From the NCBI RefSeq assembly GCF_003287935.1, contig NZ_CP030287.1, forward strand, positions 8,217,350 to 8,281,349: a stretch of 64,000 nucleotides of DNA, written 5' to 3'. This document shows positions 5,577 to 13,945 of the stretch, piece after piece (positions within the stretch are counted from its first letter, which is position 1; every line of letters starts with the position of its first letter). Under the pieces are notes generated by a model that saw only the letters and a program-made list of their open reading frames with translations, searched no databases and was not told the origin of the DNA. This DNA comes from Streptomyces sp. ICC1. Its GTDB lineage: Bacteria; Actinomycetota; Actinomycetes; Streptomycetales; Streptomycetaceae. Both the position numbers and the translations under genes were made by a program.

Positions 5577-6272
5577 TCACCGCCTCCTTTCGCACACGAT
5601 GCAGAGGCCCGCGCGAGCGGTGAAGCCCAGGGCCAGTTTGCCCGTGTTCTGCGCCTGCCGCAGGCACTCGTGCCGGTCGAGATGAGCGTACTGCTGGGTC
5701 GACATCGTGTCCCTGACGAAGACCTCCCAGTGGTCCTGGGCCTTCACCCAGTCGTTGCGGTGCGCCACCCGGACCCAGGTGTCGACGAAGTCCTGCCGTG
5801 CGTGGGTTCCGTGGAAGTACGGCCCCAGATCGTCTATGAGGCCGGGGAGGCGGACCCGCTGACGCAGCGTTCGCCGCTGGAAGAGGGTGTTGGTGGAGAT
5901 CGACTTCACGCGGCTTATGCGTTCGGCGATGACATGGCCGGCGAACCCACCGATGATGGCCGGGACCAGGAGCCAGCCGACCAGCGAGGCCAGCCACAGG
6001 AGCACGTGCTTCGGGGCGTCGATCAGGGTGAACACCCGGTACACGCTGCTGGGGCTGCCCGCCCGCGCCGCGAAGACGTACAGGAGCACCAGGCACACGG
6101 CCATGGGCAGTCCCCAGTCCACTATCCACTGGGTGACCCCCTTCAGGGCCTTCCGCGAGCGCCACAGGCGCAGCCAGCGCCGCAGGAGGCGCCGGCGATC
6201 GGGCGGCAGATCGAGATGGCCTGGCACAGGGATGGGTCCGCCGAGCAACTGTTCCCCCCGGATCTCCGTCAC
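5577..6272 (-). CDS. Membrane protein, DUF6313-like
   Basis: A 231-residue protein with two clear membrane segments at about residues 49-67 (IVDWGLPMAVCLVLLYVFAA) and 90-112 (LLWLASLVGWLLVPAIIGGF). The cytoplasmic N-terminus is Arg-rich, and the C-terminal half is soluble with a C-x2-C pair near the end (LCIVCERRR). The layout resembles Streptomyces DUF6313 proteins as I recall them; this was not checked. It forms a tight operon with the 122-residue protein downstream. Function unknown. Confidence 0.65.
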   Translation of the reverse strand: MTEIRGEQLLGGPIPVPGHLDLPPDRRRLLRRWLRLWRSRKALKGVTQWIVDWGLPMAVCLVLLYVFAARAGSPSSVYRVFTLIDAPKHVLLWLASLVGWLLVPAIIGGFAGHVIAERISRVKSISTNTLFQRRTLRQRVRLPGLIDDLGPYFHGTHARQDFVDTWVRVAHRNDWVKAQDHWEVFVRDTMSTQQYAHLDRHECLRQAQNTGKLALGFTARAGLCIVCERRR

Positions 6273-9787: not shown

Positions 9788-9830
9788 ATTCCGGCGCCGG
9801 CGGGCGGTGAACGGGCAGGCCGGCCCCCGG

Positions 9831-11408
9831 TCAGATGTGGGAGAATCCCTGGTTCTGAAGCGCCCGGTCCAAGTACCAGAACGTGCGGTCGATGGCGTGC
9901 CTGGGGAAGGTGCTCGTGTACGGCTCGGCGGGGAGCGGGACCGATTCGCATCCGTCCTCGGCCAGGACGATCACCCGGTCGAACCCGTAGTGGCCCTGGA
10001 ACAGGCCGATCTCGTGGATCACGTTCTGGCGCGCGACGAGCTGGCCGTCGCCCGTCGCGTCCTCCGCGGTCAGCACGCAGATCGCGAAACTGCAGCGCTG
10101 CAGGTAGTCGGTGAGCGCCTCGGTGACCGGCCTGCTCCCCCAGGAGTCCGACTCGAACGAGTACACCGGCAGGCCGAACCGGCGCTCCACGAAGGACTTC
10201 ACGGCGAGCCACTCGGGGCTGCGGCCGTGGGCGATGAAGACTCCCGCGGGAAGGGCCGCCGCGCGCCGGGCCGCGTCGTGGGAGCGGATGAAGTCCTTGG
10301 TGACGGCGGCCAGTCCGCCGTGGCCGTGACTGCCGACGTAGCGCAGCTTGTGCCGGGCCAGGGTCATGCCGAGCAGGGAGCCGAGCTCCACTTGCAGCCG
10401 GTCGCTCGTCAGGACCGCGAGCAGGCCGGCGGCGAACACGTCGCCCGCCCCGGTGGCGTCCTCGATCTGGTCGTCGGCCAGGACGATCTGCGGGTGGAAG
10501 TCCTCCACCGCCTTGCCGTTCTCGCTGCGCCAGACGTGGATCCCGGTGCGCCGCTTGACGACGATGACGCTCCTGTCGTTCGCGAGGCCCTGGAGGAGGT
10601 GCCCGGCGATGTCCTCGTCCGTGTCGCCGCCGTTCCTCCTGCCGAGCTCGTGGAACTCGCGGTGGTTGAGCATGAGGTACGCGGTCAGCCCGCAGATCCC
10701 GAGGACCTCCTCGGTCGGCAGGGTGCACCAGACGTGCCCGGGATCGAAGCTGATCAGTGTGGCGGGGCTGGCTTCCTTGACCGCGCGCAGGGTGGCGAGG
10801 AGGGCGGCGGGCGTGCGGTCGTCGAGGAACGAGGTGACGTGGACGACCCGGGCGGTGGCGAGGTACGCGACGACCTCGTCGAAGGAGCGCGCCAGGTGGT
10901 CGGCCATGGCGCTGTTGGCGCCGGCGTGGGTGAGGAGCGTCCGGTCGCCGTCCTCCGTCAGGGAGAAGCAGATGCCGCAGAGGTGGTCGTCGTCCCTGAA
11001 GACGAACGGGTGGTCCACACCGAGGCCGCGCAGTTGGTCGATCGCCGACAGCCCGGGGCCGGGTACCCGGCCGGCGACCCCGACGTAGCCCAGGTTCAGG
11101 CCCAGTTGGAGCTGGGCGAGCACGTTGACCGCGTTGTAGGCGGAGCCGCCCAGGGACGTCTGCAGCGTGGACGTGTTGATCGCTTCGAGCGCCGCGAAGA
11201 CCGTGGCCTCGTCCACCGCGGTCTCCGTACCCCATTCGGGGACGGGTGCCTCGCCGTCGAGCAGTTCGGCGATCCGCGTGGTGAGCGGCCGGCGGTCCGG
11301 GCTCGCGTTCCTGTCGACATGGGTGATGTAGTCGAGGTTGAGCGCCCCGATCCCGACGACGTCCAGGGCGAAGCCGGACCGCGGTCGGTTCGTCGGATCA
11401 GCGGTCAT
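9831..11408 (-). CDS. PfkB-family kinase fused to a CAP12/STING-type TIR domain (catalytic Glu present)
   Basis: A 525-residue two-domain protein. Residues about 15-370 are a ribokinase/PfkB-fold kinase: GIGALNLDY near the start, SLGGSAYNAV for the substrate region, and IEDATGAGDVFAAG with catalytic Asp323. Residues about 388-500 are a TIR domain of the predicted nucleotide-binding class known from CAP12/STING effectors (Pfam PF10137): VFIAHGRS, then CSFAICVLTAED, then ARQNVIHEIGLFQG, where E466 is at the position of the catalytic NADase glutamate. The ATG at 11408 lies inside the end of the upstream paralog (11-nt overlap), so the two are translationally coupled. Kinase substrate unknown. 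TIR NADase activity is inferred from motif; a role in phage defence is a hypothesis. Confidence 0.85.
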   Translation of the reverse strand: MTADPTNRPRSGFALDVVGIGALNLDYITHVDRNASPDRRPLTTRIAELLDGEAPVPEWGTETAVDEATVFAALEAINTSTLQTSLGGSAYNAVNVLAQLQLGLNLGYVGVAGRVPGPGLSAIDQLRGLGVDHPFVFRDDDHLCGICFSLTEDGDRTLLTHAGANSAMADHLARSFDEVVAYLATARVVHVTSFLDDRTPAALLATLRAVKEASPATLISFDPGHVWCTLPTEEVLGICGLTAYLMLNHREFHELGRRNGGDTDEDIAGHLLQGLANDRSVIVVKRRTGIHVWRSENGKAVEDFHPQIVLADDQIEDATGAGDVFAAGLLAVLTSDRLQVELGSLLGMTLARHKLRYVGSHGHGGLAAVTKDFIRSHDAARRAAALPAGVFIAHGRSPEWLAVKSFVERRFGLPVYSFESDSWGSRPVTEALTDYLQRCSFAICVLTAEDATGDGQLVARQNVIHEIGLFQGHYGFDRVIVLAEDGCESVPLPAEPYTSTFPRHAIDRTFWYLDRALQNQGFSHI

Positions 11409-12972
11409 GCGGATGTCCTCCCCGGGCCAGGATCCGTTCCCTGACCAGCATGCGTTCCAGTTCCACGAAGGTTGCGCCGATGCGGCCGGGAGCGAAGTCC
11501 AGGCGGATCAGGCCGGCGTTGTTGGAGAACTCCTCGCATCCTTCCTCCGCCAGGATGGCGACCTTGCCGAAACCGTAGTAGCCCTGGAAGACGCCCACCT
11601 GGTGAACGGCGCTCTCGCTGGCGCGCCGTTGACCGGCGGCCATCACCCGGGAGGCCGACAGGACGCAGATCGCGAACGCGCAGCGGCCCAGTTGTTCGCG
11701 CATCACCTGCGGGTGGCGGGCGTCCTGGCCGCGCGGGTGGTTGAGGGTGTGGACCGTCAGCCGGCAGTCGTCTTCCAGGAACGTCCGCAGGGCGTCCCAC
11801 TGGGCGTCCTCGTCGTGGGCCACGAGGACGGCCCCGGGGCGGGTGCCGGGCGCCGTGAGCGCTTCGGTCGACTGGAGGAAGCCCTCCCGGCCGAGCACCG
11901 GCAGCGCGGACGTGCCGGTGTGCGCCTGGACGGCCCGCAGGCGCGAGAGGCTCAGGCCGAGGAAGGATCCGAGCTCGGCTTGGAGCCGGGTGGAGGCGAG
12001 CGCGGCGATGACCGACGCCGAGAACACGTCGCCGGCCCCGGTCGCGTCCTCGATGGCGCCCTCCCGGACCGGTCGGCGCAGTTGGAACCGCTGGGCGAGC
12101 ACCCCCGTCGGCGCGGTCCGGAAGACCTCCACGCTGTCGTACCGCTTGGTGACGAACACGGTGCAGCTCGGGCCGCACCTGGCCAGCACCCGCTGGGAGA
12201 GGACCTCGTCCGACTCCCCCAGTGCGTACTCGCCCAAGGCCTTGAACTCCCTGTGGTTGACGAACAGCAGGTCGCTGAGGGCCAGGATGCCGTCCACCGC
12301 CCCGCTCCGGTTCTCCGCCCACGCGAAGCCCGGGTCGAAGCTCAGCAGCAGGGCCGGATTGATCCGGCGTGCCCGGCAGAGCACTTCGAGCAGCACCGGC
12401 GGGGTCAGCTCGTCCAGGAACGACGTGACGTGGACGATCCGGGCCTGCGCCAGGTAGTGGGCGATCTGCTCGCCGTTGCGCGTCAGGTGCTCGGCCATGA
12501 GGTAGTTCGCACCGGGATGGGTGAGCATCACCCTCTCGACGTCCTCCAGGTACGACAGGCAGACGCCGGCGAGCCGTTGCGGCCTGCGGGCGACCCAGCG
12601 CCGGTCGATGCCGAAGAGGTCCATCTGCCGTACGAAGGACAGCCCGGGCGTCTCGATCCGCCCGGCGACTCCCACGTAGCCCAGGGTCAGGCCCAGCCGC
12701 ATCTGGGCGAGGGTGAAGGTGGTCAGCCACGCCGAGCCGCCCAGGGAGGCGTCCAGCGACGCGGCGCCGAGCCTGCCGATCGCCTTGGAGATCGCGATCT
12801 CGTCGATGGGGCCCTCGGTGTTCCACTCGAAGCGCGCGGTGGACTCGGAGACCCGGTCGGCCATGTGCGCCGACAGCCGCGAAACGCTCGCGATGTAGTC
12901 GACGTTGAGCGCCCCCACCCCGACGATCTCCGGACCGTGCCGCCTTGCGTCGGAGCGACTCGCAGCGTCCAT
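11398..12972 (-). CDS. PfkB-family kinase-TIR paralog with Glu to Gln change in the TIR domain
   Basis: A 524-residue paralog of the downstream gene with the same order of domains. The kinase part (about 13-360) retains GVGALNVDY, DASLGGSAW and IEDATGAGDVFSAS with catalytic Asp315. The TIR part (about 381-495) retains VLVAHDED, CAFAICVLSASR and the VFQGYYGFGKVAILAEEGCE block, but the helix that carries the catalytic glutamate reads ASESAVHQVG, so Q458 stands where its partner has E466, and the RQN of the partner is lost. The kinase looks active and the TIR looks dead. ATG 12972 is chosen from the GGGGGTG just upstream. Likely forms a hetero-complex with, or regulates, the active partner; that is inference. 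Confidence 0.83.
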   Translation of the reverse strand: MDAASRSDARRHGPEIVGVGALNVDYIASVSRLSAHMADRVSESTARFEWNTEGPIDEIAISKAIGRLGAASLDASLGGSAWLTTFTLAQMRLGLTLGYVGVAGRIETPGLSFVRQMDLFGIDRRWVARRPQRLAGVCLSYLEDVERVMLTHPGANYLMAEHLTRNGEQIAHYLAQARIVHVTSFLDELTPPVLLEVLCRARRINPALLLSFDPGFAWAENRSGAVDGILALSDLLFVNHREFKALGEYALGESDEVLSQRVLARCGPSCTVFVTKRYDSVEVFRTAPTGVLAQRFQLRRPVREGAIEDATGAGDVFSASVIAALASTRLQAELGSFLGLSLSRLRAVQAHTGTSALPVLGREGFLQSTEALTAPGTRPGAVLVAHDEDAQWDALRTFLEDDCRLTVHTLNHPRGQDARHPQVMREQLGRCAFAICVLSASRVMAAGQRRASESAVHQVGVFQGYYGFGKVAILAEEGCEEFSNNAGLIRLDFAPGRIGATFVELERMLVRERILARGGHPHDR

Positions 12973-13111
12973 GGCACCCCCATGCCGACCGGCCCACCGA
13001 ATCCGTGGCGGAGACATACCCCGTCGGCGTGCGTCTCTCACCCGCGCGGGGCGGCGACGTCCGGGGGAGGGTGCGGCGACGTCTGGGGGCCTCAAGCGCC
13101 TCCAGCCCCCT

Positions 13112-13945
13112 TCAGCCCCCCGTGAAACGCGGGGGCCGGCGCGCCGCCTTGGCGCTGTAGCCCTCGCGCGCGTCCTCCGAGGTGAGGGTGAGCGCCGCCG
13201 TCATCGCGACGCGGTCCAGGGCCGCTGGGAGGGCGGCGTCCGCGTAGGAGTCGATCGCGCGTTTGATGCCCTGGACGGCCAGCGGGGCGTTCGCGGCGAT
13301 CTCCGCAGCGAGGGCCCGTGCGGTGCCCTCCAGCTCCCCGGGCGGGACGACCTCTTGGACCAGGTTCAGCCGGTGCGCCGTCTCCGCGTCGATGCGACGG
13401 CCCGTCAGGGCGAGGTACTTCGCCCAGCCCGCGCCCGTCTCGCGGGCGATGCGCAGGTCTCCGCCCGCGTCCACCGCGACGCCCAACTGGGCCTCGGGCA
13501 GCGCGAAGACGGCGTCCCGCGCCGCCACCCGGATGTCGGCCATCAGCGCCAGCTCGAAGCCGAATCCCAGGCAGTAGCCCTGCACCGCCGCCACCACCGG
13601 CTGCGGCAGGCGGGCCAGGACCGCGAAGCGCTCGTGGACCCAGCGGATGCCCTCGTAGTAGTTGCGGTTGCGCCCCGCCGCCGACTCCCCCGTGATCGCC
13701 CCGCCGGGGGCGGTCACGTCGATGCCCGCGCAGAAGGCCCGGCCCTCGGCCCGCAGCAGCACCGCGCGCACGTCCGGGTCGAAGCGGATCCGGTCCGCCA
13801 GCAGGCCCAGCTGACGCGTGGACTCCCAGCTCCAGCCGTTGAGCTTGTCCGGCCGGCAAAGGGTGAGTTCCGCGATCCCGTCCGCCACGTGCAGCCGGAT
13901 CCGTTCCTCACCCTCCGCGATCTCCGTGCTGATGGTGTCGATCAC
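13112..13945 (-). CDS. Enoyl-CoA hydratase/isomerase family protein
   Basis: A 277-residue crotonase-fold protein. Visible motifs are the N-terminal LCRPDKLNGWSWES strand, AEGRAFCAGIDVTAPGG for the first oxyanion-hole loop, QGYCLGFGFELALMADIRVA for the second, and PEAQLGVAVDAGGDLRIAR around the usual catalytic region. It should hydrate or isomerise an acyl-CoA in fatty-acid or aromatic-acid degradation, in the cytoplasm; the precise substrate is unclear. The ATG at 13945 gives full length. Next upstream on the same strand is the PIG-L deacetylase, 23 nt away. Confidence 0.9.
   Translation of the reverse strand: MIDTISTEIAEGEERIRLHVADGIAELTLCRPDKLNGWSWESTRQLGLLADRIRFDPDVRAVLLRAEGRAFCAGIDVTAPGGAITGESAAGRNRNYYEGIRWVHERFAVLARLPQPVVAAVQGYCLGFGFELALMADIRVAARDAVFALPEAQLGVAVDAGGDLRIARETGAGWAKYLALTGRRIDAETAHRLNLVQEVVPPGELEGTARALAAEIAANAPLAVQGIKRAIDSYADAALPAALDRVAMTAALTLTSEDAREGYSAKAARRPPRFTGG

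Follow-up and report, generated by a model that had tools for sequence, protein, structure and literature searches.

What is the role of two adjacent genes that each join a PfkB-type kinase to a Toll/interleukin-1 receptor (TIR) domain, when only one of the two TIR domains keeps the residues expected of an active enzyme? This question is raised by a gene pair on the minus strand of the window analysed here, a stretch of 64,000 nucleotides from Streptomyces sp. ICC1 lying at 8.22-8.28 Mb of a 9.03-Mb contig. The upstream gene A and the downstream gene B (Table 1) encode proteins with 40% identity, which an earlier reading of the letters alone (the sequence-only reading) had described as tandem paralogs, each combining a ribokinase-type kinase with a CAP12/STING-type TIR. 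This description is borne out by sequence alignments to solved TIR structures and by Pfam matches of both proteins to PfkB (PF00294; 55 bits for A and 81.1 bits for B, cut-off 25.8) and to CAP12-PCTIR_TIR (PF10137; 65.2 bits for B and 26.2 bits for A, the latter barely above the cut-off of 24.7). The kinase part has a ribokinase-like fold and accounts for the matches listed in the structure comparisons, and the guanine-plus-cytosine content by codon position is gene-like in both genes. Taken as a whole, the pair is best explained, as a tentative proposal, as a self-contained and horizontally moving two-subunit switch that hydrolyses nicotinamide adenine dinucleotide (NAD), in which the TIR site would be split between A and B and gated by the kinase folds, probably in an abortive-infection type of response.

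TIR active sites in the two paralogs

SfSTING, a TIR-STING protein with NAD hydrolase (NADase) activity, employs R78, N80 and E84, a set of aromatic residues with W33 and F37 among them, and D110 contributed by the TIR opposite (part of PMC9402430). R78, N80 and E84 align with R460, N462 and E466 of B (7un8 alignment; E 0.13 for this pair alone, with a chain-to-paper offset of 8 counted by hand), and W33 and F37 fall near F418 and W423 of B by way of the 9lmq alignment (E 2.8e-4), a placement that is approximate. The sequence-only reading had opposed E466 in a TIR helix of B to Q458 of A; the two residues do occupy the same alignment column, and a structure model places E466 within helix 461-474.

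Searches at E 1e-3 returned 501 relatives for B and 484 for A, and the best 120 of each nearly all carry both domains. Homologue figures given here rest on the best 120 of these sets and of 191 relatives from a third search with a divergent A-type query. In the E466 column, Glu is present in 120 of 120 B-type proteins (B itself included) and in none of 120 A-type proteins, which have 101 Gln, 9 Arg, 5 Leu, 2 His, 1 Lys and 2 gaps. The third search supplied 11 further A-types, again without Glu (8 Gln, 1 Leu, 1 Phe, 1 Tyr), giving 0 of 131 A-types examined (2 with a gap in the column). The Glu/Gln contrast is thus a family rule among the proteins examined. Each type also forms its own clade in a kinase-domain tree (local supports 0.952 for A and 0.799 for B), and because there are hundreds of relatives and the split follows the two clades without exception among those examined, A and B are not chance products.

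The difference extends to the remainder of the pocket. B-type proteins retain R460 (120/120), N462 (114/120), F418 (120/120) and W423 (118/120). In A-type proteins, the R460 column holds (for 117 of the 120) 72 Asp, 15 Ser, 15 Asn, 10 Gly, 3 Ala and 2 gaps, the F418 column holds 88 Leu, the W423 column is mixed, and Asn is retained at N462 in 51 of 120. Among the homologues listed, PF10137 is missing from the precomputed domains of 8 of 119 A-types vs 0 of 119 B-types. Judged from these columns, A is a pseudo-TIR and more than a point mutant, having lost the equivalents of F418, W423, R460 and E466; it would be at most a pseudo-enzyme member of the CAP12/Pycsar TIR NADases (PF10137).

Comparison of sequence-weighted entropy over 483 nine-residue windows revealed that the two proteins conserve different parts of the TIR. 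The mean entropy of the kinase domains is nearly equal (1.29 bits in A, 1.28 bits in B), and that of the TIR is 1.65 bits in A vs 1.21 bits in B, A being the freer. The strongest B-over-A contrast lies at B residues 423-431 in the BB-loop region (0.86 bits in B vs 3.15 in A). Conversely, the DD-loop region (A 482-492, equivalent to B 490-500) ranks 5th, 9th and 10th in the A-over-B contrast (0.74-0.92 bits in A, 2.0-2.4 bits in B), accompanied by the C-terminal helix A 504-515. Within this loop, N484 and G487 are each kept in 117 of 120 A-types, and SN..G occurs in all 11 further A-types. Within SfSTING assemblies, one TIR packs its BB loop against the DD loop of another, and D110 in the DD loop completes the partner's active site (part of PMC9402430). 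The TIR part of the conservation pattern is as expected if the DD loop of A meets the BB loop and pocket of B. The hetero-complex suggested by the sequence-only reading accordingly keeps its place as the best reading, with this complementary conservation of the BB and DD loops as extra support, and a physical A:B complex combined with NADase activity of B appears fairly likely.

Pairing, co-divergence and mobility of the genes

A lies directly before B on the same strand in all 12 loci read, that is, the window, L003-L012 and L069, the last being a near-copy of L007 (98.3% over 15 kb). The two genes overlap by 4-35 nt in 11 of the 12 loci, L011 having a 33-nt gap. The 11-nt overlap noticed by the sequence-only reading is present in the window and represents probable translational coupling; a GGGGAGG stands at 11417-11423, ahead of the start of B and within the 3' end of A. 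That reading had also named recurrence of the pair and of the Glu/Gln pattern in homologues as a check, set beforehand, and both do recur, so an active-looking enzyme beside a dead paralog is a conserved arrangement. PF10137 has two matches in the whole host genome, A and B themselves; the six genomes searched whole that carry the fusion give two matches each. When equal longest-contig size is used as a proxy for A and B on one contig, 50 of the 106 listed A-type clusters whose contigs reach 3.5 kb or more have a counterpart among the listed B-types, with 0.5 expected by chance. The distances among A proteins and among B proteins correlate (r 0.95, permutation p 0.0001, Mantel test, 11 loci with L069 left out).

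The pair is patchily distributed. It occurs in 5 of 295 genomes of the genus Streptomyces (own included), all five with both genes, and the fusion was found in 3 of 394 genomes of a class sample. In a family sample, 7 of 394 genomes have a match, 3 with the pair and 4 with a single match confined to the kinase part. The copy in Streptomyces sp. ISL-43 (L003) shares 3223 aligned bases with the window, a stretch that starts 70 nt ahead of A and stops 10 nt past B, and the 21.6 kb of L003 compared with the first 30 kb of the window show no other homology except A-B cross-matches. On the A side, four relatives without the pair keep a block starting with the enoyl-CoA hydratase gene at 81-91% identity, and their homology ends at the end of that gene, at window position 13112 in three and 13119 in one. 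On the B side a break has weak support, the match of two relatives being confined to the gene that runs up to 9760, at about 70% identity. None of 100 relatives had both flanking genes side by side as an exact empty site, and all breaks observed were one-sided; in G037 and G020 both flanking genes are present, far apart or on different contigs. These observations fit a two-gene accessory cassette that moves as a unit. A 16-nt inverted pair (88%; 9814-9829 and 13130-13145) was considered as a mobility repeat and is taken as chance, because the flank repeats are no better than those of mismatched-locus controls: comparison of the 200-bp flanks of the 12 loci gave, as best inverted or direct 16-mers, matches at 11-14 of 16 positions, and the controls gave 11-16 of 16. 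A promoter and terminator scan found nothing.

Table 1. Features of the A-B gene pair and their positions in the window
Feature	Position	Strand	Details
Gene A (upstream)	11398..12972	-	524 amino acids; ATG start; PfkB-type kinase + degenerate CAP12/Pycsar TIR (predicted); PF00294 and PF10137 above cut-off
Gene B (downstream)	9831..11408	-	525 amino acids; PfkB-type kinase + intact-looking CAP12/Pycsar TIR; PF00294 and PF10137 above cut-off
A/B overlap	11398..11408	-	11 nt
A kinase domain	11992..12699	-	residues 92-327, PF00294 match
B kinase domain	10404..11186	-	residues 75-335, PF00294 match
A TIR domain, catalytically degenerate (predicted)	11494..11829	-	residues 382-493, Pfam match; pocket residues lost
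B TIR domain	9945..10241	-	residues 390-488, Pfam match
B BB-loop region of TIR	10110..10160	-	residues 417-433; conserved in B, free in A
A DD-loop region of TIR (SNxAGLIRLD)	11497..11529	-	residues 482-492; conserved in A, free in B
B E466 codon; Glu predicted to be catalytic, counterpart of SfSTING E84	10011..10013	-	alignment with CAP12 9lmq/7un8 and PycTIR 8jsj
A Q458 codon	11599..11601	-	same alignment column as B E466
B D323 codon; GAGD Asp, catalytic in the kinase	10440..10442	-	120/120 (best 120 of 501)
A D315 codon; GAGD Asp, catalytic in the kinase	12028..12030	-	120/120 (best 120 of 484)
B N92 codon	11133..11135	-	Asn in the alignment column of T. gondii adenosine kinase N73
DNA common with Streptomyces sp. 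ISL-43 copy	9821..13042	.	L003 8367-11589; 91.5% identity

Proposed mechanism and rival explanations

In the proposed mechanism, B would be the NAD+ hydrolase, with its catalytic Glu and NAD pocket, and A would be a non-catalytic partner whose constant DD loop reaches into B and completes or positions the active site. The kinase folds of both chains would bind a small ligand, such as a ribose-containing nucleoside or a sugar phosphate, together with ATP. As a ligand-controlled hinge, these folds would determine how the two TIRs are placed relative to each other, and NAD+ would be broken down only upon a change in ligand state. The probable occasion would be phage infection, and the probable output NAD+ loss and growth arrest. 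A defence role of the pair may be entertained, at somewhat under an even chance.

Several observations weigh against this mechanism. A dead Gln TIR is equally what an inhibitor would be predicted to show. The non-TIR linker after the kinase (B 353-366) contrasts nearly as strongly as B 423-431, and the strongest A-over-B contrast is a non-TIR segment of the kinase lid (A 39-51) and not the DD loop. The DD-loop argument is post hoc, noticed after looking, and the D110 equivalent is uncertain by about 2 residues (B 493-495 or A 485-487). In sequence, the TIR resembles individual solved structures only weakly (9lmq 2.8e-4, 8jsj 0.051, 7un8 0.13). The Asn presumed to contact ribose is missing from most A-types. 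For 56 of the 106 listed A-type clusters there is no contig-size match among the listed B-types, and pairing is unproved there; shared vertical descent would equally give correlated divergence of A and B. The kinase-TIR fusion is absent from the plasmid, phage and IMG/VR collections searched. Finally, the sequence-only reading had proposed to check whether such pairs recur near defence genes, and no defence-island signature appeared among 116 neighbour proteins at 11 loci (116 of 119 proteins from genes of at least 90 amino acids within 7 kb, called with a simple gene caller, L069 left out; PADLOC at E 1e-15). This missing signal is weak evidence against a defence role, because random control loci were not run.

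The inhibitor just mentioned is the rival that survives best, although it is judged unlikely. A would be a resident antitoxin-like protein that caps the TIR of B until a kinase ligand or phage product frees B, which then assembles with itself and destroys NAD+. The order of upstream partner and downstream effector with an overlap is that of many toxin-antitoxin pairs, no unpaired fusion was seen in the 12 loci read or the six whole genomes with the fusion, and the conserved DD loop of A might block the pocket just as readily as complete it. Nevertheless, the DD loop of B is free to vary, which would be odd if a B:B assembly formed the active site.

The kinase domains bear on a metabolic alternative, in which a bifunctional enzyme would phosphorylate a (possibly modified) nucleoside and cleave its N-glycosidic bond with a TIR-like glycohydrolase. 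Pseudouridine kinase and pseudouridine-5-phosphate glycosidase provide a precedent for a PfkB kinase acting in sequence with a glycosidic-bond enzyme, though that glycosidase has another fold and no dead paralog accompanies it. The GAGD Asp residues pointed out by the sequence-only reading, D323 in B and D315 in A, are both there, and the Asp is present in all 240 A- and B-type proteins examined. The NXXE motif, which we take to be functional in PfkB kinases, keeps N in 239 and E in 240 of the 240, and K285 equivalents are kept in nearly all A and B; such retention would be needless for pure sensors. No NCBIfam equivalog cut-off is reached by A or B, and the nearest named families are ribose-1-phosphate kinases and adenosine kinases. 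N73 of T. gondii adenosine kinase, with which N92 of B aligns, is presumably a ribose contact; its column is Asn in 120 of 120 B-types, and Leu (91), Ile (15), Asn (13) or Ala (1) in A-types. TIR-less sister kinases occur in ordinary genomic settings, and the lack of a defence island around the pair also suits a salvage enzyme. However, the TIR matches the CAP12/Pycsar family with its pocket residues, a catalytically dead partner would be unusual in salvage, and neither transporter nor catabolic genes recur next to the pair across the 12 loci, so the alternative seems quite improbable. A housekeeping-type regulator of NAD or development in actinobacteria, using controlled NAD+ breakdown and not anti-phage death, would agree with the named hosts being almost all actinobacteria (among the homologues listed), but it is very improbable in view of the patchy distribution (5/295 in the genus, 3/394 in the class sample) and the cassette-like movement of the pair.

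Known systems and genomic surroundings

Known TIR NADases have sensors of the cyclic-nucleotide, Argonaute, CRISPR-ligand or protein type. The TIR of the A-B pair is of a known effector kind; its kinase-domain partner and the dead paralog are, to our knowledge, novel. Cap12 TIR-STING (SfSTING, 7un8; also 9lmq) of the cyclic-oligonucleotide-based antiphage signalling system (CBASS) resembles B in its Pfam TIR family, its RxNxxxE pattern and its catalytic Glu. SfSTING itself requires TIR-TIR assembly for NADase activity, with the DD loop of a partner completing the site (part of PMC9402430). In contrast, the A-B pair carries a PfkB kinase in place of STING and consists of two different chains, one with a dead TIR, and no cGAS/DncV-like nucleotidyltransferase (CD-NTase) was found in the neighbour set. 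PycTIR of Pycsar (8jsj) has a TIR of the same family with the Glu aligned, at a weak score; however, Pfam detects no cyclic-nucleotide-binding domain in A or B, and no pyrimidine cyclase was found among the same 116 neighbours. Models for Thoeris (ThsA-type partner) likewise gave no match in that set at E 1e-15. PADLOC family PDC-S35, presumably a single-gene candidate to judge from its name, matches the TIR of B (residues 379-488; 4.2e-10), but only profile positions 110-223 of 264 are matched, the first 109 being unmatched, and A reaches only E 0.051. No PADLOC family matches the kinase part at E 1.

Paired proteins of related logic are known. In plant paired TIR-type nucleotide-binding leucine-rich-repeat receptors (TIR-NLRs) such as RPS4/RRS1, the genes are paired and one TIR is active and the other is not; these differ in having NLR sensors and no kinase. 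FAM118A and FAM118B form a paralogous NAD-processing pair in which each protein is very weak alone and far more active together, and a paralog pair of this behaviour thus exists in nature (part of PMC12700824). They differ from A and B in their sirtuin fold, in the absence of a kinase and in needing the active-site residues of both partners (part of PMC12700824), one partner being dead here.

The sequence-only reading knew of no described system with this architecture, and we found none in the open-access literature on kinase plus TIR or antiphage defence and on the TIR side, most subscription papers lying outside this coverage. The PfkB of PMC11676413 and that of PMC11341870 are KKP-module kinases and namesakes only. 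PF10137 TIRs are treated in PMC13142454 without mention of a kinase in the part available. Cyanophages carry PfkB sugar kinases (part of PMC7824862). An immune NADase whose TIR site is split between obligate paralogs, built on nucleoside- or sugar-kinase folds that sense an infection metabolite, would be unlike the sensor-TIR designs we know to be described, and we hold this full picture to be rather doubtful. If a metabolic kinase is indeed the sensor, the activation of TIRs would be tied to the metabolism of nucleosides or sugars. Since evolution itself points out which residues to mutate (E466 of B, the DD loop of A), the active/dead pair also offers a natural test of whether neighbouring TIRs share active sites, and it may bear on why plant paired TIRs with one inactive member occur.

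Among the 116 neighbours, PADLOC matched eight families, namely mad3 (4 members) and mad2, two GajB models, C3a187, two PDC-S03 models and RTasHel (1 each), which we read as generic helicases and similar proteins and not as systems. No partner gene family recurs beside the pair in the 12 loci, apart from those of the near-identical L007 and L069. The 10 window neighbours scanned, which include an enoyl-CoA hydratase, a PIG-L deacetylase, an alpha/beta hydrolase, a zinc dehydrogenase, a regulator, a PQQ/WD40 protein, an ankyrin protein and a periplasmic binding protein, contain no defence gene.

The 50 loci gathered comprise 10 with the fusion, 10 closer kinase-only relatives (L013-L022) and 30 remote PfkB kinases. 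In Actinacidiphila, kinase-only relatives of B (L017 10037-11095, L018 10016-11053) lie between a GNAT-like and a sulfite-reductase-like gene, followed by sulfur-assimilation-like genes, and in Winogradskya (L013 1338-2387, L014 9947-10969) they directly follow a glyceraldehyde-3-phosphate-dehydrogenase-like gene (all names by reading). The idea that kinase-only relatives carry other effectors was dropped, as no effector swap was seen among the neighbours of L013-L022, read by eye. A kinase-only relative at L065 (G743) has two TGA codons inside the match and is perhaps a decaying gene. The kinase lid of A at residues 39-51 (window 12820-12858, including ESTARFEWN) is possibly a contact between the kinases.

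Seven plasmid records match only the TIR part (query residues 355-522). On the rhizobial plasmids L071, L072 and L073, B-like TIR proteins are found near insertion sequence elements, an integrase, a VapC pair or nuclease genes. The sole phage match, in a Microcystis phage (L102 2501-2794), has 43.9% identity over 98 residues to the TIR of B, adjoins a transposase gene and is annotated in part as a CMP/hydroxymethyl hydrolase. Elsewhere in the window, at 5580-6104, a DUF6313 protein (1.9e-100) is encoded directly upstream of a small protein without a Pfam match.

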